Of a stretch of DNA of 64,000 nucleotides, positions 1-23,282 are shown piece after piece. The stretch is taken from positions 62,001 through 126,000 of the forward strand of contig DYJC01000015.1 in NCBI GenBank assembly GCA_020723305.1, in the 5' to 3' direction. Position numbers and translations under genes: made by a program. The notes below the pieces were generated by a model that was not told the origin of the DNA, did no database searches, and worked only from the letters and a program-made list of their open reading frames with translations. This DNA is from Desulfosudis oleivorans (GTDB lineage Bacteria > Desulfobacterota > Desulfobacteria > Desulfobacterales > SURF-7). How positions within the stretch are numbered: position 1 is the first letter of the stretch; each line of letters starts with the position of its first letter.

Positions 1-2164
1 GCAGGATACGTCTGTTCGCATCCACAACAACCTCTTCATCATCCACAAACAGGATGTTTTCATTCCCGGTTGGGGTTTGAACCGAAATACTGGGTTTCAG
101 AGCGGAAATTGTGCCGTCATCGATTATGGGCAGATAGATTTCAAATATTGAACCTTTCCCCTCTTCACTTTCAACTGTAATGAATCCATCATGATGAATC
201 ACAACACCATGCACAACCGATAACCCGAGACCTGTTCCCTCACCTGGTCTTTTGGTTGTAAAAAACGGATCAAAAATACGATCCTTTATTTCCGGTCTCA
301 TTCCACATCCCATATCGCTGACCGATAACCGGACATACCGGCCCGGACGCATATCAGCTTGTGCCAGTGGCTCATCCAGATATACATCTTCGACCTTTAC
401 CTTGAGTTTGCCTCCTTCTTCAATCATGGCGTGGGCAGCATTGTTGCAGAGATTGATGACCAGTTGCTGAATCTGGGTTGAATCGGCAAGAATCACACTC
501 ACATCTTCAGCAATATCCTGCTGCATGACGATTGTTGCTGGAAGCATTGCCCGCAGCATTCTGAGCGTTTCTTTTACAATGGAGTTGATCCGGATGGGTT
601 TTCGCTCAATCTCCGATTCCCTGCTGAATGTGAGGATCTGCTCAATAAGATCTTTTGCCCGGTGGCTACCCTTCAGTACCTGCTTCAGAGAATAGATGGA
701 GTTGCTGTCTTTCGGCAGATCATCAATGGCAAGTTCCGTATTTAACAATATGGATCCCAGAATATTATTAAAATCATGGGCAATTCCACCGGCCAGGGTT
801 CCGATGGCTTCCATCTTCTGCACATGGTGAAGCTTTTTCTCCAGCCGGATCTTCTCTTCTTCTGCATGAAGACGGTTTGTAATATCCGTAATAATGGAAA
901 TAAAACCGATAATATTTCCATTTTTGTCTTTTTTATAATTCCAATCCGATTGCGTATTAATGATGCGACCGTCTTTGGTCAGACACCTGTTGAGAAAAGG
1001 AATGCGAGTCGGTTGTTCCCGGACAAGCGTGGCCAGAAATTCTTTCATTTCCTGCTTTTCCTTTTCCGATACCAGAAGATCAAAAAGAGGTTTTCCGATC
1101 AGTTCCCCGCTTTCATATCCAAAAATATCGTATAATGCTGAATTGGCGAATGTTATTATCCCTTTTGTGGTGATCTCCTGAATTCCATGGGGTATGGTTT
1201 CGACAAGTGTCCGATACCTTTTTTCACTTTCACGCAGCGCCTCTTCCACCCGTTTCCGGTAAGTGATATCAATAGAGGTAATAATCGCACCGCCGGGAAA
1301 GGGGGATATCCGGATATGAAGAAACCGTCCGAAATACGCCTGATCCGTGAACTCTTTTTGGACACCGGATTTCATACACTCCTTTAATTCGTGGAGCATG
1401 TCGATCTTATGCTTCCCGGCATAATCCTTATACATGATATCACCGATATTCGGAAGCCGGCTGTCGGATTGACCTTTTGCCAGATTGTAACCGGTGATCC
1501 GCAATTCTTTATCCACAATAACGGTCTCGATCGGATTATTTTCAAAAAGCGCACGGTATCGCTCTTCACTCTCCCGCAGCGCTTTCTCCATAAAGTTGCG
1601 CTCTTCTATCTCCTTTTTCAGTTTTTCATTAGCCTGAAGCAGTTCAATGGTTCTTTCATGCACATGCAGCTCCAATTTTGCATGCGCCTTCCGAAGCTCC
1701 TCTTCCGCCTTCTTCCTATCGGTCAGATCCCTTGCAAAACTGTTGATACCGGTCAGTTGACGATTCTTATCATACCGGAAATTAATGGCCCAAAGCATAT
1801 GATGTATTGAATTGGTGCTGAAATTGATCTGGCGTATCTCATAGTTCACATTGCGAACCTGATTGTTGATCCACCCTTGAAAATCACGGATCGCCGTATC
1901 CCGATCCTCTGAGTGAACAAATTCAAACATGGATCGGCCGACACACTGCTCCATGCCGACACCGAAAATCCTTTCCGCCACATGATTCACATAAATAAAA
2001 TTCCCCTTTCCATCCAGTTTTGCAATCAGGACATCTGTTTCTTCAACAAGCTCACGGAATCGGGCCTCGCTTTCCTGTAATGCCTCTTCAGCCTTTTTCC
2101 TCCATATCATTTCTCTCTGTAAAGCAGAGTGAGAATCCAATTGATGCACAGTCATTTTTTCCAT
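1..2164 (-). CDS. PAS-rich hybrid sensor histidine kinase (C-terminal part beyond window edge)
   Basis: Reading the minus strand from the ATG at 2164 gives one open frame to the window edge. It encodes a cytoplasmic-looking sensor with no membrane segment near the start. About three PAS domains (roughly residues 28-150, 205-320, 325-445) are separated by helical linkers. A dimerisation/phosphoacceptor helix follows with the H-box [15 protein letters not shown] (near residue 460), then an ATPase domain with N-box [11 protein letters not shown] and G-boxes GMRPEI and GTGLGLS. After that a receiver domain begins ([12 protein letters not shown]) and is cut by the edge. This is the NtrB-like HDFNN kinase class. 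The start ATG is preceded by only a weak CAGG. The signal sensed and the partner regulator cannot be told from the sequence. The family call is sure; the specific role is not. Confidence 0.9.
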
Positions 2165-2487
2165 GATCAAAACCTGTTCTTTTTTAAATGTATGAAAAGT
2201 CGCCGATTGATAAGAATCACAGCTAAAAAATCGAATCCCTTGTATGGAAACCAGACAACAGCTCAAACATGAATAATTAAAAAGAGCCTGGAATCAAAAG
2301 ATTAGGTATTTCACAACCCTGAAGGAAAGAATCTATCTGACACAAACTTATTCTGCTGCCTGTTCGAAAATTGGAATGAACATACCATAAACGCCCTTCA
2401 ATATCAACATTTCATACTATACAAAATGAAGGAAATGAATTTCAACGACTCTCAAGAATTTTGGATTTTTCGCTGGAATACGGATGG
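2165..2487. other. intergenic stretch without a gene
   Basis: AT-rich sequence between the sensor kinase start and the broken ATPase end. I see no convincing open frame, hairpin or promoter with both boxes. It presumably holds the kinase promoter and the lost 3' part of the ATPase gene. Confidence 0.5.
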
Positions 2488-2946
2488 TCAGCCACTATCA
2501 GAAGTCATGGGCCCCAGATGATAATATTCGATTCGACCCGCCGGCATGGAAAAATGAAGGCCCGCCGGAGCAAACTCCAGCAGGGAGCCGGCGCAAATAA
2601 CCGGCAGATCCGGCCGGTTTTCATAAAAATATCGCAACGCCTGGATGGCATGAGGCGTGGCCTGGATTTCATCCAGAAACAAAACAGAGCCGGGTGTGTT
2701 GATGTTCCTTCCCACAAGAGCGTCCAGCTCCCGGATAATATCATCCATATCCAAAGACTTGAAAATCGTGTCCAGGTACAAATGCTGTTCCAGGTTGATC
2801 TCGTTTAAAATCAGAGGATGGTTTTGCGCAAATTTACGCACCAGGGTGGATTTGCCGACCTGACGGGCGCCCCTGAGCACCAGAGGCTTTCGGCGTTCTT
2901 TCCGATACCAGGCATGCAGATAAAGTTCAGCGTTTCGTTGAAGCAT
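2488..2946 (-). pseudogene. truncated AAA ATPase (AAA_14/DUF4143 family), N-terminal part only
   Basis: The first 150 or so residues match the N-terminal ATPase domain of the large AAA_14 plus DUF4143 family (usually near 400 residues). The start is MLQRNAELYL. Walker A is RGARQVGKST, Walker B is VLFLDEIQATP, and the sensor stretch is CAGSLLEF. The family's following segment (LGPMTFEEFL in typical members) begins as LGPMT and then runs into a stop. The whole C-terminal half is therefore missing, and no continuation is visible in the next 300 bases. These proteins are often mobile or laterally spread and have no settled function. The start at 2946 is chosen because the family begins just there; the in-frame upstream ATG adds unrelated residues. 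I read it as a decayed gene. Confidence 0.7.
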
Positions 2947-3116
2947 GATTAAAACAAACCCCTTTTTTGACCAAAAAGCTATCAAAAAATGGGTTTGTTT
3001 GCCAAGTGGACTTCCGGCTGTTTTTATCGTTTCAATGCTGTGCCCTCCAAAAGGAAACGGCCTCGTCTATATGGGAGGCCGTAAACGTAATGTTGAAAAG
3101 CAGCGAGAAAGATAAA

Positions 3117-3308
3117 ATGTCAACGATGATCAACCCGGTCCAATTCTTCACGGATTACCTGACGAATAACCGTCTCGTCGATTGGTTTTCCGCTTTTCGA
3201 AAGATATTCCCGGAAGGCATCATTGATCAATGTAAAGGCATCAAGACTGATAAGCAGCAGGATTTTATAGAAGCATCCCTGTCACAGTTTCAATCCTATG
3301 AAAAATAA
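3117..3308 (+). CDS. small hypothetical protein
   Basis: A 63-residue frame starting MSTMINPVQFFTDYL, with a purine-rich GCGAGAAAG stretch upstream of the ATG. It overlaps the convergent DUF5610-like gene by 13 bases at the stop codons. The composition looks protein-like (amphipathic, ending in a Gln/Ser-rich helix), but I recognise no family. It could equally be the tail of a lost larger gene, because it lies between a truncated ATPase and a housekeeping-like gene. Confidence 0.35.
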   Translation: MSTMINPVQFFTDYLTNNRLVDWFSAFRKIFPEGIIDQCKGIKTDKQQDFIEASLSQFQSYEK

Positions 3309-4708
3309 TCAATCGCCCTGTAGGATGGAAGATTCAGCAAATCCGCGTTCACCTCATCGGCATCTCCTTCCCGGGAAAGGGCTTTTTCAAGCATCTGGGT
3401 AACCAGATCCGGATTTTGATGAGTTGCCTCCGGTGAAACAGACTCAATCGGTTCCTGTAATGCCAGGAAAATATCTTTGAATAGGTCAAGCGGTTTTTCA
3501 AATAACGCAAACCCTTGATGGCCTGATAGTTTTTGCACATCCTCCTTCAGGGCTCCAAGGTAATCCCCGGATGCGGGTTGAGCCAATTCCCTATTTTCAT
3601 AGGCAGGAACACGAGTTTCAGGGGTTATATAAGCAGCATACGCGCTTCTTTCATATTTCAGATCCAGTGTAAATCCGGAAAGCTCATTTGAAATATCACC
3701 CATTCCTACTGCCTGATTAAGCGCATCCTGAAAATTTCCGGAATAAAATTTATCTGCCAATGTAGTGATTTCCCCGATCAGATCGGATATGGCGTTCAAT
3801 TCCTCCGGGTTTAACTCGCCCTGAATCGAAAAGTAGAGAGAATCCTCTGTGGAATCTGAAATCTGTTTGCCCCTGATTTTTTTCCCTTCATCTCCATGTT
3901 GATAGCGAACCAATTCAGACATCATATCCATATTGATTTCAATCTTCACCCGATCGCCATCCTTTGTCAGGATTTCCAGATTGAGTTCCCTTGATTCACT
4001 CTTACCTTGGATTTCAAGCATATCTCTGTTTTCTTGCTGAAGTGCCGGCTGATTACTTCGCAAAGATTGAATCCCTTTTTTAATAAACTGGTCAGCCTTC
4101 TCAACAGTTTGAATCGACTGTTCCCGGAAAACCGACTGTGAAAGATAGGATACGGTTTCCTGGAACCCTTTACTGACGCCATTTTCGACCGCATTTAATA
4201 ACTGTTGTTTTGTCTCATAAACTACCGGCTGCACTTGGATCTCTTCTGCCAATGCTGCCTGAGTCTGATCTTGAGAAATTTCTGCCGGTTCATTCCGTTC
4301 TTCCATCTGCACAGCCTGTGGAAGTTCGCTTTCAGATACGCTCATATCCTCTGCCGGAGGAATCACCAACGCATTGATATTGGCAACCTGCTCTTGTATG
4401 CGGTTCAACATGTTTCCGGCAAAACCTTCGGGTGTGTCCGTGTTTGAATAGGGAAATAATTTATTTGAATTTTCAAAATCGATCACACCGGTCAATGCTT
4501 CCTTCAGATTTGAAAAAAAGAGATCCAGCGCTTTTGACGGGTCAGAGGAGCTGTCCAGGCTGATATATTGAACCTCAATCATTTCACTGGATGTATATGA
4601 ATAAATTCTATTTTTCTGGATGGAATCCTGTTTTTCCAATCCGGATTCATCCAAAGCCCAGGCCTGTTGTGGGCATTGATAAGGACAGCTACTTACATTC
4701 TGTATCAT
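3296..4708 (-). CDS. DUF5610-like hypothetical protein
   Basis: 470 residues with no signal peptide or membrane segment. The middle (about residues 90-215) has the helical pattern of DUF5610: a FAGNMLNRIQEQV stretch, then an acidic and Gln-rich linker, then NAVENGVSKGFQETV. The C-terminal half contains the FSIQGELNPEELNAI / DKFYSGNFQDAL / LSGFTLDLKYER stretch that often follows it in gammaproteobacterial and deltaproteobacterial proteins. Function is unknown; the acidic, low-complexity linker suggests a soluble or surface-associated protein. It stands alone on its strand, so neighbours give no clue. The family assignment is from memory of the pattern and is moderate. Confidence 0.7.
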   Translation of the reverse strand: MIQNVSSCPYQCPQQAWALDESGLEKQDSIQKNRIYSYTSSEMIEVQYISLDSSSDPSKALDLFFSNLKEALTGVIDFENSNKLFPYSNTDTPEGFAGNMLNRIQEQVANINALVIPPAEDMSVSESELPQAVQMEERNEPAEISQDQTQAALAEEIQVQPVVYETKQQLLNAVENGVSKGFQETVSYLSQSVFREQSIQTVEKADQFIKKGIQSLRSNQPALQQENRDMLEIQGKSESRELNLEILTKDGDRVKIEINMDMMSELVRYQHGDEGKKIRGKQISDSTEDSLYFSIQGELNPEELNAISDLIGEITTLADKFYSGNFQDALNQAVGMGDISNELSGFTLDLKYERSAYAAYITPETRVPAYENRELAQPASGDYLGALKEDVQKLSGHQGFALFEKPLDLFKDIFLALQEPIESVSPEATHQNPDLVTQMLEKALSREGDADEVNADLLNLPSYRAIDYFS

Positions 4709-4978
4709 TCGTGTTTCTCCCTGTTTTTATAAAAAATATTACCTGTCAATAGAGTCAAAACAGGATGCCTGAACCGGCATGACATAGGAACCGTTTTGTA
4801 AAAGCGTTTTTTCTTGTATCGACTGTTTGATCAAAAGACTTGAATTATTTTACCGGAAAAACAATAGATGCAGCTTGCAAAATTCATTGAATCTGAATAT
4901 CTAACTAAAAGTTTGGTTGAAAAACAGACTGTAACCCGGTCTGGACGATTTTGAATAAAAATTTAAGCGAGGATATGT

Positions 4979-5185
4979 TTGGCAACATTTTTATATTATT
5001 TCAAATTTGTACCTATTCTTATTGCAGGTGTGCTTCTGGGGCGATGGTTTGATCAGGAACGGAAAGAGCTGAAGGCAAAAGGCAATCCATGGTATACAGC
5101 ATGGTCAACCGCTCCCGGTATTATGATCATTATTATTCTGTGCATGCTGATCGCCTTTCGTATGTACATCCGTTTTTCCTACTGA
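4979..5185 (+). CDS. small two-helix membrane protein
   Basis: 68 residues starting at a TTG codon, with GAGG centred about eight bases upstream. The nearby ATG at 4975 is in another frame. Two hydrophobic helices, FVPILIAGVLLGRWF and PGIMIIIILCMLIAF, flank a charged loop (DQERKELKAKGNPWY). The loop is probably cytoplasmic. I do not recognise a family. It lies 78 bases before the EamA transporter on the same strand and may be co-transcribed with it. Confidence 0.55.
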   Translation: MATFLYYFKFVPILIAGVLLGRWFDQERKELKAKGNPWYTAWSTAPGIMIIIILCMLIAFRMYIRFSY

Positions 5186-5263
5186 CATCAAAAAAAGGAT
5201 GTTCCCAAAAACCTGATCCGGCAATCCAATGGCTCGGCAGACTGCCACCCTTGATTCAATGTT

Positions 5264-6193
5264 ATGGAAGAGCAACAACAAAAACCCGGAAATCCGGAAC
5301 CATCGTTCCTGACTTCGCTGGCCATCATCGGAATCTGCACTACTTTTGGGGCCAATACCGTGTTCGTAAAAATCACCCTCTCCGGGATGGGTGCGTTTAC
5401 AACTGCCGGGTCACGTTTTTTCATCGCTTCCATAACAATCGCCTTATGGGCTCTCCTGACCGGCCAAACGATTTTCATCAAAAAAACACAGATCAAAAAG
5501 ATACTGATACTGTCGGCTATTTTTATCTGCCAGCTTGGCCTGTTTAATCTTGGACTGAGCTTGACCTATGCCTCCCGTGGTTCCCTGATTATCAATCTGC
5601 AACCGTTTTTTGTTCTCATCCTGGCACATTTTTTCATTCCAGGTGATCCATTCACATCCAAAAAACTGGTTGGAATCCTGTTGGGGTTTACCGGTGTTAC
5701 CGTCATGTTTCTGGAAAAAGACGGGATCTCATCGGATCTGCGATCCGGTGATTTTCTGATGCTGGCATCGGTTTTTCTATGGGCCATCAACGCCATCTAT
5801 ACCAAAAAAATCATATCCGGATTTAAACCCTTTCAACTGGTGCTGTATCCGGGAATCCTGTCGGTTCCTTTTTTCTTTCTGGCAGGCTATTTATGGGATA
5901 CGCCGATGTTTGGAACAATCGACCTGAAAATTCTCGGATCACTTATGTACCAGTCCCTGATCACCGCCTCTTTTGGATTTGTTGTCTGGATCAACATGCT
6001 GCAGAAATACGGGGCGGTCACACTTCATTCCTATATTTTTATCATACCGGTTTCCGGGGTGCTGTTGGCAGGGTTTTTATTGAATGAGCCGGTGGGTACG
6101 GTCAACATCATCCTGGCATCCATTTTAATTGCTGCCGGAATCGTCATTGTTCATACCGATTTCTCTTTTGTACGAAGAAGGCTTGGGTGGTAA
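5264..6193 (+). CDS. EamA-family (DMT superfamily) transporter
   Basis: 309 residues with about ten predicted transmembrane helices arranged as two EamA repeats (about residues 18-150 and 160-300). The first repeat ends GVTVMFLEKDG and the second ends GIVIVHTDFS, the usual repeat termini. A hydrophilic N-terminus rich in Gln and Pro precedes the first helix. Members export or import small metabolites such as amino acids or nucleotide-sugars across the inner membrane; the substrate cannot be inferred. The length is normal for the family. A palindromic repeat that may act as a terminator lies just downstream. Confidence 0.9.
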   Translation: MEEQQQKPGNPEPSFLTSLAIIGICTTFGANTVFVKITLSGMGAFTTAGSRFFIASITIALWALLTGQTIFIKKTQIKKILILSAIFICQLGLFNLGLSLTYASRGSLIINLQPFFVLILAHFFIPGDPFTSKKLVGILLGFTGVTVMFLEKDGISSDLRSGDFLMLASVFLWAINAIYTKKIISGFKPFQLVLYPGILSVPFFFLAGYLWDTPMFGTIDLKILGSLMYQSLITASFGFVVWINMLQKYGAVTLHSYIFIIPVSGVLLAGFLLNEPVGTVNIILASILIAAGIVIVHTDFSFVRRRLGW

Positions 6194-8052: not shown

Positions 8053-8741
8053 TTTTTCTTTTCAGTAAACCGGTATCCGACTCCCCTTACGGTTTCAATA
8101 TACTTTCCATAGGGGCCGAGTTTTTTCCGAAGTCCGACAATCTGGACGTCCACGCTGCGGTCTGTAACGGCATATCCTTCTCCCCGGACGGCATCCACAA
8201 TCTGATTTCGTGTAAACACCCATCCCGGATATCCGGCGAGGAAATGCAGCACCTGAAATTCAGTAAAGGTAAGAGGGAAGACCTGCCCATCCGCCGCCAC
8301 CTCTCTCTTTCCGGAATCGATCACCAGTTCATGGGCTTTTAGCACATATTCATTTTCTTCCGGCTTTTTGTCCTTTCTCCGCAGAACCGACTTTACTCTT
8401 GCGGCCAGCACCCTGGGGGAAAACGGTTTGGTGATATAATCATCCGCACCCAGTTCAAGCCCGGTAACCACATCGGCTTCCTCTCCTTTTGCCGAAATCA
8501 TGATGATGGGAACATTCTGCGTTTTGGGATCTTTCTTCAATCGCTTTGCAACCTCAAGGCCATCAATCCCGGGAAGCATCAAATCAAGCAGAATCAAGTC
8601 AAAATCAAAGGAATGGGTTCTTTTCAGGGCATCTTCCCCGGAATCGGAACAGACCACCTGATATCCTTCCCGGCGCAGGTTATAATTCACCAGTTCCAGG
8701 ATATCCTCCTCATCATCTACTGCCAGTATTGTCTTCGACAT
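8049..8741 (-). CDS. phoB: phosphate regulon response regulator PhoB
   Basis: 230 residues with an N-terminal receiver: acidic pair DDEED near residue 10, phospho-acceptor Asp in LILLDLMLPG near residue 54, and Lys in DYITKPFSP near 106. A C-terminal winged-helix OmpR/PhoB DNA-binding domain follows, with the recognition stretch VDVQIVGLRKKLG and wing ETVRGVGYRF. It is expected to bind Pho boxes as a dimer and activate the pst promoters; candidate boxes lie upstream of pstS and pstC. It sits between phoU and phoR, the normal place in deltaproteobacterial pho operons. Upstream spacing from phoU is 60 bases, with an AGGG-type ribosome site. Confidence 0.95.
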   Translation of the reverse strand: MSKTILAVDDEEDILELVNYNLRREGYQVVCSDSGEDALKRTHSFDFDLILLDLMLPGIDGLEVAKRLKKDPKTQNVPIIMISAKGEEADVVTGLELGADDYITKPFSPRVLAARVKSVLRRKDKKPEENEYVLKAHELVIDSGKREVAADGQVFPLTFTEFQVLHFLAGYPGWVFTRNQIVDAVRGEGYAVTDRSVDVQIVGLRKKLGPYGKYIETVRGVGYRFTEKKK

Positions 8742-8801
8742 TTTTTCCCTGTCTTTGCTTCAATATGAAATGGCTCTTTCCGGTTTGACTACCCGGCAAA
8801 C

Positions 8802-9461
8802 CTAGATTTTTGTGTGGCGAACGATCTCTCCTTCAATCAGATAGATCACCTCTTCGGCAATGTTGGTCGCATAATCCGCCAGCCGTTCCAGATGGCGTGA
8901 AACCAGCAGCAGATTGATCAGATATCCATGGCTGTCTGCGTTGGCATTGGCCATGGCTGCTTTGATTTCATCATAAGCCTGCCTCTGAATCAGATCCACA
9001 GCATCATCCATCACCAGGACACGGAAAGCCAGATCCAGATCCAGATTCACGAGGGCATCCAGACTTTTTTTCAGCATCTCCTGGGATTTCTGAGCCATAA
9101 CCGAGTAATCAAAAACAAAGGAGTATTTCTTCTGTTTGGCGATAATGGCTACCCGCTGGGCGATATTCACCGCCTGATCCCCAATACTCTCCAGGTCACT
9201 GTTGATTTTGATCACGGCGATCAAAAACCGCAGATCAACCGCTACGGGTTGATACAATGCCAGGATTTTCAGGCACTCCTCTTCGATATCCACTTCCATT
9301 TCATCTACTTCATGGTCTGAATTAACTACCCTTTTCGCCAGCTCTGCATCCCTGGTCTCGATAGCTAACGCAGCCAGACGAACACGGTCTTCAACCATTG
9401 CGCCAAGGGTCAAAATCGATTTCTTGATTTTTGAAAGCTCTTTCTGCAAATGTATGGTCAT
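8802..9461 (-). CDS. phoU: phosphate signalling regulator PhoU
   Basis: About 219 residues forming two PhoU helical repeats. Each carries the metal-binding type motif: in repeat one near SDLESIGDQAVNIAQR, in repeat two near SRHLERLADYATNIAEE. PhoU restrains PhoR when the Pst transporter is saturated with phosphate. I choose the ATG at 9461 (MTIHLQKELSKIK) because GAGGAA lies eight bases upstream; the longer in-frame start overlaps pstB and adds residues that the family lacks. It follows pstB by 16 bases and is surely co-transcribed. Confidence 0.95.
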   Translation of the reverse strand: MTIHLQKELSKIKKSILTLGAMVEDRVRLAALAIETRDAELAKRVVNSDHEVDEMEVDIEEECLKILALYQPVAVDLRFLIAVIKINSDLESIGDQAVNIAQRVAIIAKQKKYSFVFDYSVMAQKSQEMLKKSLDALVNLDLDLAFRVLVMDDAVDLIQRQAYDEIKAAMANANADSHGYLINLLLVSRHLERLADYATNIAEEVIYLIEGEIVRHTKI

Positions 9462-9477
9462 GTTTTGTTCCTCAGGA

Positions 9478-10239
9478 TCATCCAAAACGGCCGGTGATAT
9501 AATCTTCAGTTGTTTTCAGCCTGGGCCGGGTAAACATGGTATCGGTTTCCCCTGCCTCGATCAGCTTTCCCATATAAAAAAAGGCGGTCACATCCGATAC
9601 CCGTGCAGCCTGCTGCATGTTATGGGTAACGATAATAATCGTATACTTGTCTTTTAATTCGTGGATCAGTTCCTCAATCTTCTGTGTGGCAATCGGGTCC
9701 AGTGCTGAACAGGGCTCATCCATCAGCAGCACTTCCGGTTCAACCGCCAATGCCCTTGCAATGCATAATCGTTGCTGCTGGCCGCCGGACAGACTCAGTG
9801 CAGAGTCATGCAACCTGTCCTTGACTTCATCCCACAGTGCTCCTGATCTTAGACTTTTTTCCACCCGTTCGGCAATCAGATTTTTATCTTTCACACCGTT
9901 CACTTTCAACCCATAGGCCACGTTTTCAAAAATGGTCTTGGGAAAAGGGTTGGGCTTCTGAAATACCATTCCAATCCGGCTCCGGAGTCTCACCACATCC
10001 ACAGAGGGTTTGTAAATATTTTCTCCATCCATGCAGATTTCTCCTTCAACACGGATGCCGGGAATCAGATCATTCATCCGGTTCAGGCAGCGAAGAAACG
10101 TGCTTTTCCCGCAGCCGGATGGGCCGATTAAAGCAGTGGCCTGATGCAACTGAAAATTCAGAGAAATCGATTGAAGGGCCTTAACACTTCCATAATAGAA
10201 GTCTAAATTTTTAGATGTTATTTTATACTCTTGTTCCAT
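9478..10239 (-). CDS. pstB: phosphate ABC transporter ATPase PstB
   Basis: 253 residues with every motif of a working PstB. These are Walker [11 protein letters not shown]-loop [10 protein letters not shown], signature [15 protein letters not shown], Walker [14 protein letters not shown] and switch histidine in [13 protein letters not shown]. It energises phosphate uptake through PstCA as a homodimer. These intact motifs make it a good internal standard for the two divergent PstB paralogues at 36771-38320. Neighbours are pstA (33 bases upstream) and phoU. Confidence 0.97.
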
Positions 10240-16498: not shown

Positions 16499-17185
16499 TT
16501 ATAGTTTTGTTGTCGAACGGGTATTCAGGCTGATCAGATATTCAATAATCTCATGCATATCAGTTGCTGGGTTGTTTGTACCGGTTGACTGGTTGTATTG
16601 TTGCAATTGTTTTGCATTTTTGATGGCGCTTGGAAGCATCTCTTTTGTTAATGCAAAGATATTCCGGCCCCCCTTGTTATATCCAGGGATTCGCCCACTT
16701 TTTTTTAAATCGGCAATAACCAGTTCACAGTCTGAGGCATTACCCTGAGTGCAAAATTGACGGGTCGTATAAACGAAATGCAACAGTAACCAAAACTCGA
16801 AGCAGGGTACGGAGATTATGGCCGCAAAAATAACATTTTTACCCAATATCGTCTGACTTATCTTGTCCACGGCCTCATGGAAGTTGGTGTGCTTATCTCG
16901 ATCAATCACACAATAGACTCGTTCGTAGTCCCTATCTTCCCGAAACTTTCCGATGGCATAATTCACAACACTGAGCGGATCTGAACCGCATTCATTCCCA
17001 CAGATATCGATATTGGCGGTATTTAACCGGTAGGAATCCCGTATCTCCCTGAAATAAATAGGCTCTGTTTTGGCCCCTTCGCAGACGATAAGAACCCGGT
17101 CATAAGGTGCCTTCAGAGATTTCTTACGTTTCAGAGAAGAAGCTCGCCGTTCCTTGCGCTTATGAAAAAGATTATCAGTCCCCAT
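16499..17185 (-). CDS. rloB: RloB-like Toprim-fold protein (putative defence effector)
   Basis: 228 residues. A basic N-terminus (RKERRASSLKRKKS) precedes VLIVCEGAKTEPIYF and later VYCVIDRDKHTNF. These are the conserved Glu and DxD motifs of a Toprim-like nuclease/primase fold seen in RloB and related proteins. ISVPCFEFWLLLHF is a further RloB hallmark. Its start overlaps the stop of the ATPase gene by one base (TGATG), so the two are an operon. By analogy with ATPase/Toprim pairs such as PARIS and OLD-type systems, it may cleave nucleic acid when released or activated by the ATPase. The activity is inferred. Confidence 0.75.
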   Translation of the reverse strand: MGTDNLFHKRKERRASSLKRKKSLKAPYDRVLIVCEGAKTEPIYFREIRDSYRLNTANIDICGNECGSDPLSVVNYAIGKFREDRDYERVYCVIDRDKHTNFHEAVDKISQTILGKNVIFAAIISVPCFEFWLLLHFVYTTRQFCTQGNASDCELVIADLKKSGRIPGYNKGGRNIFALTKEMLPSAIKNAKQLQQYNQSTGTNNPATDMHEIIEYLISLNTRSTTKL

Positions 17186-18453
17186 CAGAACCTTACGTCC
17201 CCGATATACGGCAATGCTCCATAGCGCCCCTTAAGATATCCTTTTTCCAGAGCCTCTCCTTTCCGAGGGGTGAAATCGGATAGCGGATAAAGATTGGTGG
17301 CATTCATAGCATCCTTCTCCGTGAACCAGATCTGATCGCGGCGGAATAGCTCGTTGTCCAAAACCGATGTATCGTGAGTCGAAAAAATCAGTTGGGCATT
17401 TTTTCGATTAATCTGCGGGTTGTTAATCATACCAATCAGAAAGCGTACCATCAAGGGATGCATACTGTTGTTCAGCTCATCTACGAACAGAACATGACCG
17501 TTATCGATCACATCCAGCCAGGGACCGGCCATGGCAAACAACTTCTTCGTCCCGACTGATTCATCATCAGCTTCAAGTGTAACCACCTCTTCAGTCCCTT
17601 CCACTATATGCAGAAACTTGGCCTCTGAAAATTCTGCTCCATCTAAGTCTTTACGAATTATATCCTTAATTGGCTCGGGCATATCAGATGGCAAATCAGT
17701 AGGATCAAACCGCTTCCTCTCGATATTGATATCTTTAATGCTCAAATCTGCAGCATTCAGAAACTCAAGAATCCTCTTCCTATCTTTCTCATTCTCGCAC
17801 AAAGTGGTTGTATATATCGGCGCAAGCCCACCCACTCCAATGATACGCAGTTTCTGCTGGAACCAGTTAAAAACCGGCTTCAACTGCTCGTTGTTAAACT
17901 GAACTGCAGTGGACAAAAATAGCGCATTGCTACGTGTTGTCTCCTGCAAGACAGTTTTGTGACCTTTAAATTTACTGCCGAAATACCAGTCCTCCTTTTT
18001 ATTTAAAGCATCAAATTTTCTTTCAAACCACCGTTGGGGACGTCCTTCCGGATAGGCTATCAACCACTCATGGTTGACACTCATACTATTGACGGCAAAA
18101 CCATACTGGTAGCGAACTCCTTCCTGCAGGAATATCACTTCGAATTCGCTCGACCCGGTACGGGTGGTGGTATTGAACAGAAATGGTTTAACCTCGATTG
18201 GCTCCCCCTCCTGCCCCTCCTTTGATGATTTCCCGACGAAGTTATCCATAAAATTAATAGCTTCTATGAGATTACTTTTTCCGGAAGCATTCGGGCCATA
18301 AATGGCAGCGGACCGGAGCAGGCGCAACGCACCTTTTTCATTGGTTATAAAACTATTTTGCTCTCTCAACTCGGAAGCAGGACTTGCTACCAAACTGAGG
18401 GTTTGTGTGTTCTGAATTGACTTGAAATTGGTGACACTAAATTCAATAAGCAT
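17185..18453 (-). CDS. rloA: RloA-like AAA/ABC-type ATPase
   Basis: 422 residues of the AAA_15/AAA_21 class related to SMC/Rad50 ATPases. Landmarks are N-terminal FSVTNFKSIQNTQTLSL, Walker A YGPNASGKSNLIEAI (about residue 55), Walker B HVLFVDELNNSMHPLM (about 330), and a switch histidine in LIFSTHDTSVLD. No coiled-coil insertion is seen, so it is the compact form. It is paired with the RloB-like protein and next to toxin-antitoxin debris, the usual setting of antiphage modules. It likely senses infection and controls RloB. Upstream is AT-rich with a likely ribosome site (AAGGAAATT). Confidence 0.8.
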   Translation of the reverse strand: MLIEFSVTNFKSIQNTQTLSLVASPASELREQNSFITNEKGALRLLRSAAIYGPNASGKSNLIEAINFMDNFVGKSSKEGQEGEPIEVKPFLFNTTTRTGSSEFEVIFLQEGVRYQYGFAVNSMSVNHEWLIAYPEGRPQRWFERKFDALNKKEDWYFGSKFKGHKTVLQETTRSNALFLSTAVQFNNEQLKPVFNWFQQKLRIIGVGGLAPIYTTTLCENEKDRKRILEFLNAADLSIKDINIERKRFDPTDLPSDMPEPIKDIIRKDLDGAEFSEAKFLHIVEGTEEVVTLEADDESVGTKKLFAMAGPWLDVIDNGHVLFVDELNNSMHPLMVRFLIGMINNPQINRKNAQLIFSTHDTSVLDNELFRRDQIWFTEKDAMNATNLYPLSDFTPRKGEALEKGYLKGRYGALPYIGDVRF

Positions 18454-20759: not shown

Positions 20760-20814
20760 TTGACAGTGCAGTTGTTGTCAATTATAAGTATTAAAGCGAT
20801 TAATTGAATACTTA
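20760..20814 (+). promoter_or_regulatory. promoter and operator of the ArsR-rhodanese/selenoprotein unit
   Basis: TTGACA (20760-20765) and TATAAG (20783-20788) at 17-base spacing. An 8-base inverted repeat, TAAGTATT (20785-20792) and AATACTTA (20807-20814), overlaps the -10 box and the probable start site. This is the usual layout for autorepression by an ArsR-family protein. TTGACA and TGTCAA at 20760-20781 form a second, smaller palindrome. Confidence 0.6.
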
Positions 20815-20825
20815 AGGAGCGCTTA

Positions 20826-21497
20826 ATGAAAAACCCAAACAGACAATTCAAAGATGCCATTTACGAACAAATTTCAAGAATCGGTAAGGCGGTTTCGAGC
20901 CCGAAACGGTTAGAACTGCTCGAATTACTCTGCCAGGGGGAAAAAACTGTTGAAATTCTTTCCAAGGAAACCGGCTTAACTTTGGCCAACACATCGCAGC
21001 ACCTTCAGATACTTAGATCGGCCCGCCTGGTTGAAGCAGAAAAAGAAGGATTGTATGTCAAATACCATCTTGCGGATCAGAAGGTTTGCGAGTTTTTTCT
21101 ATCCATGCGTGTGTTGTCTGAGCACCGGTTGACCGAAATCGAAATGATCAAGCGACGCTTTCTGGAAGGCAGGGAGGGCATGGAGCCGGTTGATAGAGGT
21201 GATTTATTGATGCGCGTAAAAGAAGGTTCCGTTACCGTATTGGATGTTCGGCCGGTGGAGGAATACCGTGCTGGACATATCCCTGGAGCTTTGTCTGTTC
21301 CTCTGGACCAGCTTAAAAAACTGCTTGCCAAGCTACCACGGAATCAGGAGGTCGTAGCCTATTGTCGGGGGCCTTATTGCGTTTTGGCTGTTCAGGCTGT
21401 TGAATTGCTGCAAAAAAAAGGATTCAAGGCTGTCCGTCTTGAAGAAGGGGTACAGGATTGGAGAGCGATGGGATTGACACTAGATATTGGTGATTGA
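20826..21497 (+). CDS. ArsR-family regulator fused to a rhodanese domain
   Basis: 223 residues. The N-terminal winged-helix domain (about 10-105) has KRLELLELLCQGEKTVEILS and the recognition helix LTLANTSQHLQILRSARLV. The C-terminal rhodanese domain (about 120-220) has VLDVRPVEEYRAGHIPGA and an active loop YCRGPYCVLAVQAV, with two Cys five residues apart. Such ArsR-rhodanese proteins are thought to sense sulfane sulfur or redox state. It has an AAGGAG ribosome site and lies 51 bases upstream of the rhodanese-DsbD selenoprotein. That gene has the same loop with UGA codons at both Cys positions. It probably regulates both genes. Confidence 0.85.
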   Translation: MKNPNRQFKDAIYEQISRIGKAVSSPKRLELLELLCQGEKTVEILSKETGLTLANTSQHLQILRSARLVEAEKEGLYVKYHLADQKVCEFFLSMRVLSEHRLTEIEMIKRRFLEGREGMEPVDRGDLLMRVKEGSVTVLDVRPVEEYRAGHIPGALSVPLDQLKKLLAKLPRNQEVVAYCRGPYCVLAVQAVELLQKKGFKAVRLEEGVQDWRAMGLTLDIGD

Positions 21498-21548
21498 AAA
21501 AATTATATAAGATAATGACGATGTAACAGCATTGCAGGAGAATTATTG

Positions 21549-23282
21549 ATGAAAGCAACAAAAATGACGCTTCTGGCCTTGATCACCATAGCTGTGACAA
21601 TCGCAGCTTTATGGTTCACAAATGGGGCTGTTACTCCCAAAAAAGCCACTTGGGAGGATGTCGTCGCCGAAGCAGAAACGAACGGGTATAATCTCATCAG
21701 TACTGACGAATTATGGAAACGTTATAACAAGACCTCTGAAAATCTCCTCATTGTCGATACACGGCAAGAATGGGAGTATCGAACCGGTCATATCAAGAAT
21801 GCCGTTAACTTTCCCATGGAACCTACCTGGTGGTCGCGCTGGCAAAAAAAAGAAGAGCTGGAGGCGTTATTAGGAACGGATAAGGACCGGTCTATCATCT
21901 TCTACTGAGCGGGTTTGACATGAGTCAGAAGCGACTCTGCAGCTCGGGTAGCTGTAAAGCTTGGTTATCAAAATGTCTATCGTGACCCCTTTGGTTATAC
22001 TCAGTGGAATGAAAAAGGCCTTCCTGTAGAAACACTTTCCGGGATGGGACAGAGACCGGAAGCGCCGGGAACACTGTATGGTTGGGCTATGATTTGGACC
22101 CTGTTTGGTATTTTCATAGGGGGCATGGCTCTTAATTTAACCCCTTGTGTTTATCCGATGATTCCTATCACTATCTCTTATTTTGGTGGACGAAGCGGCA
22201 AAAGCCACAGAAGCCAGCTAATCGGCCATGGTTTGTGCTACATCGGCGGCTTATCGATTACAAACTCAGTTCTTGGAGTATTTGCCGCCCTGACTGGTGG
22301 CCTTATGGGTGCATTACTTCAAAACCCGTTTGTGCTTTCTGCTATCGCTCTGATTCTGGTGGGTTTTGCCGCCAGCCTTTTTGGATTCTGGGAATTGCGG
22401 CTACCAACTGGCCTGATTCAGGCGGCATCAAAATCCTATGCCGGTTATTTAGGCACTCTATTTATGGGATTAACAATAGGTGTCGTGGCTGCTCCTTGTA
22501 TCGGCCCCTTTGTTTTAGGTTTACTTACCTGGGTAGCAAGCATGGGGAGTCCCTGGCTTGGCTTTATCATCTTTTTTACTTTAAGTCTTGGTCTTGGTTT
22601 ACCTCTTTTCTTTTTGGCCGTTTTTTCAGGAAACATCCAAAAGCTTCCTCGTTCAGGGGAATGGATGCTTTGGGTAAGAAAACTTATGGGTTGGGTTCTA
22701 GTCGGTATGGCCGCCTATTTCATAAGACCGATTTTACCCAAAACAACAGAAGTATTCTTTTTAGCAGCCGTTGCTCTGGCAGCAGGGCTTCATTTGGGTT
22801 GGATCGATAGAACAACAGCAGGGTTTCACGCATTTAAATGGATCAAGGCTGGATCTGGACTCATAGCTATAATTATTGCAACACTCCTGATAGGAACATG
22901 GGCTAAAGAGGGCCCTGGTGTAACCTGGCAACCATACACTTTCAAAATTCTATCCGAAGCAAGAACGTTAAAAAAACCCGTAATTATAGATTTCTCTGCT
23001 GATTGGTGCAGCTCTTGCCGTGAATTTGAAGACCTCACTTTTCACAATAAAGAAGTTGTCAAGCAAGCGGAACAGACCTTTACCATGATCAAGGTTGATG
23101 TCACAAGCAAGGAGAATCCGCTTTATGAACAGTTGTTGAAGGATTATGGGGTCAAAGGTGTCCCAACCGTTATATTTTTGGATCGTCAGGGGAATGAACG
23201 ACGCGACCTCCGTCTGGTAGATTTTATACCAGCCGATCAGTTCTTGAGCCGAATGGCGGAAGCCCAAAAACCAGTCTTGTAA
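21549..23282 (+). CDS. predicted selenoprotein: rhodanese-DsbD-thioredoxin fusion with two in-frame UGA codons
   Basis: One frame of 577 codons runs from ATG 21549 (AGGAG eight bases upstream) to the TAA at 23280, interrupted only by TGA at 21906 and 21921. N-terminus: one membrane anchor (about residues 5-25), then a rhodanese domain (IVDTRQEWEYRTGHIKNAVNFP). Its active loop reads Y-U-AGLT-U-VRSDSAARVAVKLGY when UGA is read as Sec. The regulator upstream has Cys at both places. Downstream in the same frame come the DsbD/CcdA-type membrane domain with its two Cys (NLTPCVYPMIPI and GVVAAPCIGPF, about eight helices) and a thioredoxin-like end with WCSSC. This would carry electrons across the membrane to the rhodanese. 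Alternative: a separate truncated rhodanese and a CcdA gene starting at 22044. The split would waste a conserved rhodanese C-terminus and leave no ribosome site, so I prefer the fusion. Confidence 0.85.
21935..21959 (+). other. bacterial SECIS-like hairpin
   Basis: Seven contiguous pairs (TGCAGCT with AGCTGTA, one G-U), then one mismatch and two more pairs below, close a 5-base loop CGGGT. A G is at the second loop position, a requirement of bacterial SECIS elements. The loop starts 21 bases after the second TGA and 36 after the first, within the range where SelB-binding hairpins act. A single element could serve both codons. It lies inside the coding frame, as bacterial elements do. Confidence 0.65.

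Follow-up and report, generated by a model that had tools for sequence, protein, structure and literature searches.

Our analysis indicates that positions 21549-23282 of the stretch of DNA studied here, from Desulfosudis oleivorans, a member of the sulfate-reducer group (assembly GCA_020723305.1, contig DYJC01000015.1; the window, 64,000 nt in length) almost certainly encode a TsoB protein with two selenocysteine (Sec) residues, judging from recoding signals shared across its homologues. On direct translation, the frame runs over 577 codons from the ATG at 21549 to the TAA at 23282 and contains two in-frame stops, both of them TGA (codons 120 and 125), within the local motif Y-U-AGLT-U-VRSD. 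A preliminary description of this DNA had proposed such a double selenoprotein, a rhodanese-DsbD-thioredoxin fusion with a SECIS-like hairpin right after the two TGAs and with cysteines at the equivalent loop positions (YCRGPYC) of the ArsR protein encoded just upstream, and all of these elements were recovered here. It had also held that a single fusion with Sec at both loop positions was undescribed, which proved incorrect: the protein matches the family model NF045694 (“rhodanese/DsbD fusion-like selenoprotein TsoB”) with 996.1 bits over residues 6-572, and a 2026 review (PMC13188914) lists TsoB as a UxxxxU protein with 2 Sec, citing Haft & Tolstoy 2025, mSystems 10:e0141724. The window gene is a further member of this already described family, with the same domain order, UxxxxU motif and two Sec codons, and is set apart mainly by its unusual partner regulator gene (Table 1).

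Table 1. Coordinates of features in the ArsR-rhodanese/tsoB region of the window.
Feature	Coordinates	Strand	Evidence and remarks
Possible promoter upstream of the ArsR-rhodanese gene, TTGACA-17-TATAAG	20760..20788	+	Read from the sequence; not reported by the promoter scan
Inverted repeat TAAGTATT-N14-AATACTTA	20785..20814	+	Upstream of the ArsR gene; overlaps the possible -10
ArsR-rhodanese fusion regulator	20826..21497	+	51 bp upstream of tsoB; NF033788 and PF00581; C36/C87 pair, YCRGPYC loop
Shine-Dalgarno AGGAG	21537..21541	+	7 nt 5' of ATG 21549; from the sequence
tsoB, double-selenocysteine rhodanese/DsbD fusion	21549..23282	+	Reading frame; NF045694, 996 bits (cut-off 805)
N-terminal signal anchor/transmembrane helix, aa 4-26	21558..21626	+	AlphaFold helix 4-26; hydrophobic stretch preceded by K2/K5
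Rhodanese domain, aa 52-155	21702..22013	+	Pfam PF00581, E=1.3e-16; Foldseek rhodanese matches
First Sec codon (120, TGA), where the rhodanese loop has its catalytic Cys	21906..21908	+	TGA in 55/55 Sec-type loci; TGC in L096
Second Sec codon (125, TGA)	21921..21923	+	TGA in 55/55 Sec-type loci; TGT in L096
Hairpin 1, GAGTC-N6-GACTC	21922..21937	+	Overlaps TGA 2; loop 18 nt downstream of TGA 1
Hairpin 2, best bSECIS candidate	21939..21955	+	6-bp stem; loop CGGGT 21945-21949; 21 nt from TGA 2, 36 nt from TGA 1
DsbD transmembrane (beta) domain	22092..22736	+	Pfam PF02683, E=5.7e-42; C200 (22146-22148) and C317 (22497-22499), both invariant
Thioredoxin-like DsbD gamma domain	22950..23183	+	PF13899; W-C-S-S-C at 23004-23018; best PDB matches are DsbD C-terminal domains

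The genome that carries the window (G000; 5.4 Mb, 47 contigs, 97.9% complete) encodes the complete Sec machinery sought: selA (623 bits) and selD (376 bits) lie above their curated cut-offs, selB scores 382 bits (cut-off 242), and selC scores 73 bits (cut-off 47) and is called by ARAGORN as a tRNA-Sec with a tca anticodon. A single TGA interrupts the frame of selD (L026, G000:C41:10371-11294), which makes SelD probably a selenoprotein too.

To compare the two codons across relatives, we collected 34 TsoB loci from genome contigs and found 24 places above the family cut-off in 22 of 395 genomes of the phylum. The carriers of tsoB include a cultured strain, Desulfoprunum benzoelyticum DSM 28570 (L049). 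Both codons are TGA in all 55 distinct Sec-type loci examined, a count that takes in the window and the two further copies in the same genome. One further homologue, L096 (G278:C128; 5526-7259; 913 bits against the TsoB model), reads TGC and TGT at the Sec sites (FYCAGPDCVRSD). Its genome also encodes a Sec/Sec TsoB (L097), and L096 itself has no adjoining tsoA. Its position in the tree, within a group of Sec forms (support 98/91 with L114), makes a change from Sec to Cys the best reading. Over the codons from the first TGA to the ATG at 22044, comparison with the closest relative, L032, gave dN 0.075 and dS 0.62, a sign of strong purifying selection. We therefore rejected a pseudogene or a sequencing error, in view of this selection, of the Cys/Cys homologue and of the two TGAs being kept throughout the 55 loci.

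Two hairpins accompany the TGA codons, and RNAalifold recovered both from the 55-sequence alignment alone. Hairpin 1 shows no compensatory changes and is weak by itself. Hairpin 2 has changes on both sides of pair 36/48 in 14 sequences and of pair 39/45 in 5 (19 cells in total), which fall in alanine and valine codons at sites where the change is synonymous; this cell count was reached in 0 of 500 shuffles, which ignore relatedness, and sliding the pairing partner by 1-3 columns abolished most of the pairing. The loop of hairpin 2 reads N-G-[G/T]-G-T in 55/55 sequences (CGGGT, CGTGT or AGGGT), and that of the Cys form L096 is off the pattern (CGGCT). Codons 126-138 show the lowest synonymous variation of the whole tsoB gene (0.46 vs a mean of 0.87). 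The published bSECIS model calls for a loop of 3-9 nt, a stem of 4-16 bp, a G among the first two loop nucleotides, a distance of 16-37 nt from the UGA and an MFE of at most -7.5 kcal/mol (PMC13188914). Of the two hairpins, the second fits this model best, with 5 nt in the loop, 6 bp in the stem, G at loop position 2 and distances from both TGAs within the range; its MFE has a median of -10.3 kcal/mol and is -7.5 or lower in 52/55 sequences. The window copy is marginal when folded alone (-7.0 kcal/mol) and reaches -13.5 together with hairpin 1. Single-sequence folding z-scores are weak (-1.3 for the window), so the structure is argued here from covariation and the loop pattern. The simplest reading of these data is that one SECIS would serve both UGA codons; two SECIS in tandem are possible.

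These results also bear on a reading without recoding, in which a short periplasmic rhodanese would stop at TGA 21906 and a DsbD-like protein would be translated separately from 22044, an alternative that the preliminary description had itself named. Both halves are ordinary ORFs, and other genomes have DsbD-like relatives that match only from about profile position 170. We nevertheless regard split genes as extremely improbable, given the selection acting between the TGAs and 22044, the invariance of both TGAs and their joint replacement by Cys codons in L096, the covarying SECIS and the presence of the sel genes. Moreover, no Shine-Dalgarno-like AGGAG precedes 22044, and the Met at that position is not kept in the paralogue.

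Regarding the protein itself, Pfam assigns rhodanese (PF00581), DsbD transmembrane (PF02683) and thioredoxin-like (PF13899) domains, in agreement with the proposal that a rhodanese replaces the DsbD alpha domain. TsoB shares with DsbD (NF001419, PF02683) the transmembrane domain with its two invariant cysteines and the C-terminal gamma domain, but carries a Sec/Sec rhodanese in place of alpha. Against NF001419 the window protein scores 238.6 bits, with a match that begins at profile position 168 and lacks the alpha part, and since this is below the cut-off of 330, TsoB is not a DsbD by that model. The rhodanese-related (seleno)proteins of NF041203 share a rhodanese loop able to carry Sec; however, they are short, single-domain proteins with one Sec (CxU type; PMC13188914), and TsoB scores 40.5 bits against that model (cut-off 115). 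Positions 120, 125, 200, 317, 487 and 490 are invariant as Sec or Cys in 42 sequences and give three predicted redox pairs in series along the protein (120/125, 200/317 and 487/490). AlphaFold models U120-U125 in the segment that joins a strand (115-119) to a helix (127-137), the place expected for the active loop of a rhodanese. As the pTM of the full-length model is only 0.50, we interpreted single domains and left domain packing aside.

The N-terminal anchor would put the rhodanese domain outside, and positively charged loops, read from the sequence and the AlphaFold model, are found at 215-221, 284-295, 365-378 and 421-433. With the N terminus and these loops placed inside and the rhodanese outside, an eight-helix topology would leave the gamma domain outside, where DsbD also has it. 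Initially, the WCSSC motif had been assigned to a cytosolic thioredoxin; this assignment has to be revised, since the best solved relatives of the domain, by both sequence and fold, are periplasmic DsbD gamma domains. With WCSSC in the periplasm, the cytosolic electron donor would be a separate protein. Both the topology and the direction of electron flow are inferred by homology with DsbD.

The regulator encoded upstream of tsoB passes only the general ArsR/SmtB model. It scores 42.5 bits against the TsoR model NF045707 (cut-off 115), from which it also differs by an extra rhodanese domain, and 34.8 bits against the model (cut-off 155) for BigR, one of the SqrR/BigR-type ArsR proteins that sense persulfide through a conserved dithiol. 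Cysteines C36 and C87 of its ArsR domain, a candidate sensor pair of this kind, are both kept in 6 of 7 homologues and both absent from the seventh. Its rhodanese had been called paralogous to that of TsoB; the two do have a CX4C loop in common, but with ~30% identity the relationship is only that of distant rhodanese homologues. The inverted repeat upstream of the gene is probably the operator of the ArsR protein, and repeats of the ATTCAA/TTGAAT type are found upstream of 4 of 6 ArsR-rhodanese homologues (loci L039, L052 and L055).

An ArsR-rhodanese gene lies directly upstream of tsoB in five loci (the window, L032, L044, L052 and L055). The L032 proteins are 83% and ~80% identical to those of the window, and tsoC follows the gene pair both there and in L052. 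In L055, the gene directly behind the pair (4032-5723) encodes a flavoprotein that resembles CoA-disulfide reductase and ends in a rhodanese-like part; its match is below the curated cut-off (384 vs 458 bits). Behind tsoC in L052 (within 8070-9692, downstream of tsoB), we observed a DsrE-like frame that may include a Sec (VGVUPPC) and has no NCBIfam match at 1e-6. In L039, tandem ArsR-rhodanese genes (1674-3097, minus strand), one of them without both ArsR cysteines, are divergent from a tsoA-tsoB operon. A single origin of the link between ArsR-rhodanese and tsoB is ruled out, because the tree cannot be reconciled with fewer than two changes on its well-supported branches; the arrangement was thus gained or lost more than once. 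Our literature search on ArsR-rhodanese fusions and diselenide motifs returned nothing directly on an ArsR-rhodanese/tsoB system.

TsoB is the membrane member of the Tso operon (TsoR, TsoA, TsoB, TsoC). In most loci tsoB is located behind tsoA and an ArsR gene, with tsoC downstream in many. The window copy, in contrast, stands behind the ArsR-rhodanese gene and outside any tsoA/tsoC operon; tsoA was not found nearby, nor tsoC downstream. Contig C5 of the same genome carries a tsoA-TauE-like-tsoB operon (tsoA at C5:34546-34971), the TauE/SafE-like gene of which has no NCBIfam match. A third, decayed copy on contig C16 (L031, G000:C16:30000-46000; 8090-8830) keeps both TGAs (YUAGLTUVRRDS), has lost the membrane domain entirely as well as the N-terminal half of the rhodanese, and is followed by a truncated tsoC. 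Elsewhere, L038 encodes a CcdA-like membrane protein and an ACR3 arsenite exporter (1742-3574) directly upstream of a tsoB without tsoA. The window further contains, at 16499-18453 on the minus strand, an RloB-like protein beside an AAA_21 ATPase, likely an RloAB-type pair according to Pfam.

The sequence evidence shows the frame, recoding, SECIS, domain order, redox residues and gene order; for the substrate, a diselenide cycle and a sensing role we put forward a hypothesis. The two-gene unit would consist of an ArsR-rhodanese repressor and a TsoB-family selenoprotein acting as an inner-membrane electron relay, in which the Sec/Sec rhodanese stands in for DsbD alpha. A thiol donor in the cytosol (thioredoxin or, in loci that have it, TsoC) would hand electrons to C200/C317, from where they would move to WCSSC of the gamma domain and finally to U120/U125. 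U120, at the catalytic rhodanese position, would attack a periplasmic sulfane-sulfur or related chalcogen substrate; U125 would resolve the adduct, releasing sulfide (or the reduced product) and leaving a U-U diselenide, which the gamma domain would re-reduce. The regulator has a Cys/Cys loop as well as a pair of cysteines in the DNA-binding domain, and it probably releases the unit from repression once substrate of this kind builds up. As a whole, a repressor coupled to a relay that reduces a periplasmic chalcogen substrate seems to us somewhat more probable than its negation. Against it, the window copy has neither tsoA nor tsoC alongside, and the redox potential of diselenides is very low, so the gamma domain may not reduce the diselenide easily.

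As for the substrate itself, leads to sulfane sulfur come from the ArsR-rhodanese gene, the CoA-disulfide-reductase-like protein of L055, the DsrE-like frame of L052 and the TauE/SafE-like gene on C5. The neighbours that point to sulfur outnumber the one that points to arsenic (ACR3 in L038). On this thin evidence, reduction of sulfane sulfur is the most likely chemistry of TsoB, with a probability a little short of even; it is a guess from gene neighbourhoods that differ between loci, and the ACR3 gene speaks for arsenic instead. Alternatively, TsoB could be a DsbD-type protein-disulfide reductase that uses the Sec/Sec rhodanese as a fast exchange domain for periplasmic proteins rather than for small sulfur compounds. 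The full retention of the DsbD transmembrane and gamma parts with their invariant cysteines would fit this, as would the placement of the rhodanese exactly at the DsbD alpha site (the PRK00293 match begins at profile position 168). Nonetheless, we consider this function unlikely, as rhodanese folds normally carry sulfane sulfur, rhodanese and CoA-disulfide-reductase-like proteins are found among the neighbours, and a Dsb substrate gene was not seen adjoining tsoB.

The ArsR-family regulator next to tsoB and the ACR3 exporter of L038 could also indicate detoxification of arsenic or selenium oxyanions, with the rhodanese reducing arsenate or selenite in the periplasm. The TsoB loop, U-AGLTU-V-R, contains a U-X5-R arrangement that we presume to be comparable to the C-X5-R loop of rhodanese-fold arsenate reductases (Acr2p-type), but R127 lies one residue beyond the strict C-X5-R spacing. 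Since ACR3 was seen only in L038 among the examined loci, and the ArsR protein passes nothing more specific than the general ArsR/SmtB model, such a role is even less probable than that of a protein-disulfide reductase. Returning to the reduction of a chalcogen substrate, a more specific and rather doubtful version is that ArsR-rhodanese and tsoB form a self-contained sense-and-reduce circuit apart from the Tso operon, where the Cys/Cys rhodanese of the repressor would sense the chalcogen compound that the Sec/Sec rhodanese of TsoB reduces across the membrane, and where one SECIS would decode both UGAs, 15 nt apart.

Taken together, these data settle the double-TGA gene as a genuine selenoprotein gene and keep it from being filed either as new or as a pseudogene. 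The derived Cys/Cys TsoB, the covarying SECIS placed for two UGAs and the recurrent ArsR-rhodanese partner are additions that we did not find in the literature searched, and it is in these three points that the remaining interest of the locus lies. The recurrent partner in particular hints at what TsoB acts on and makes the function of TsoB testable.
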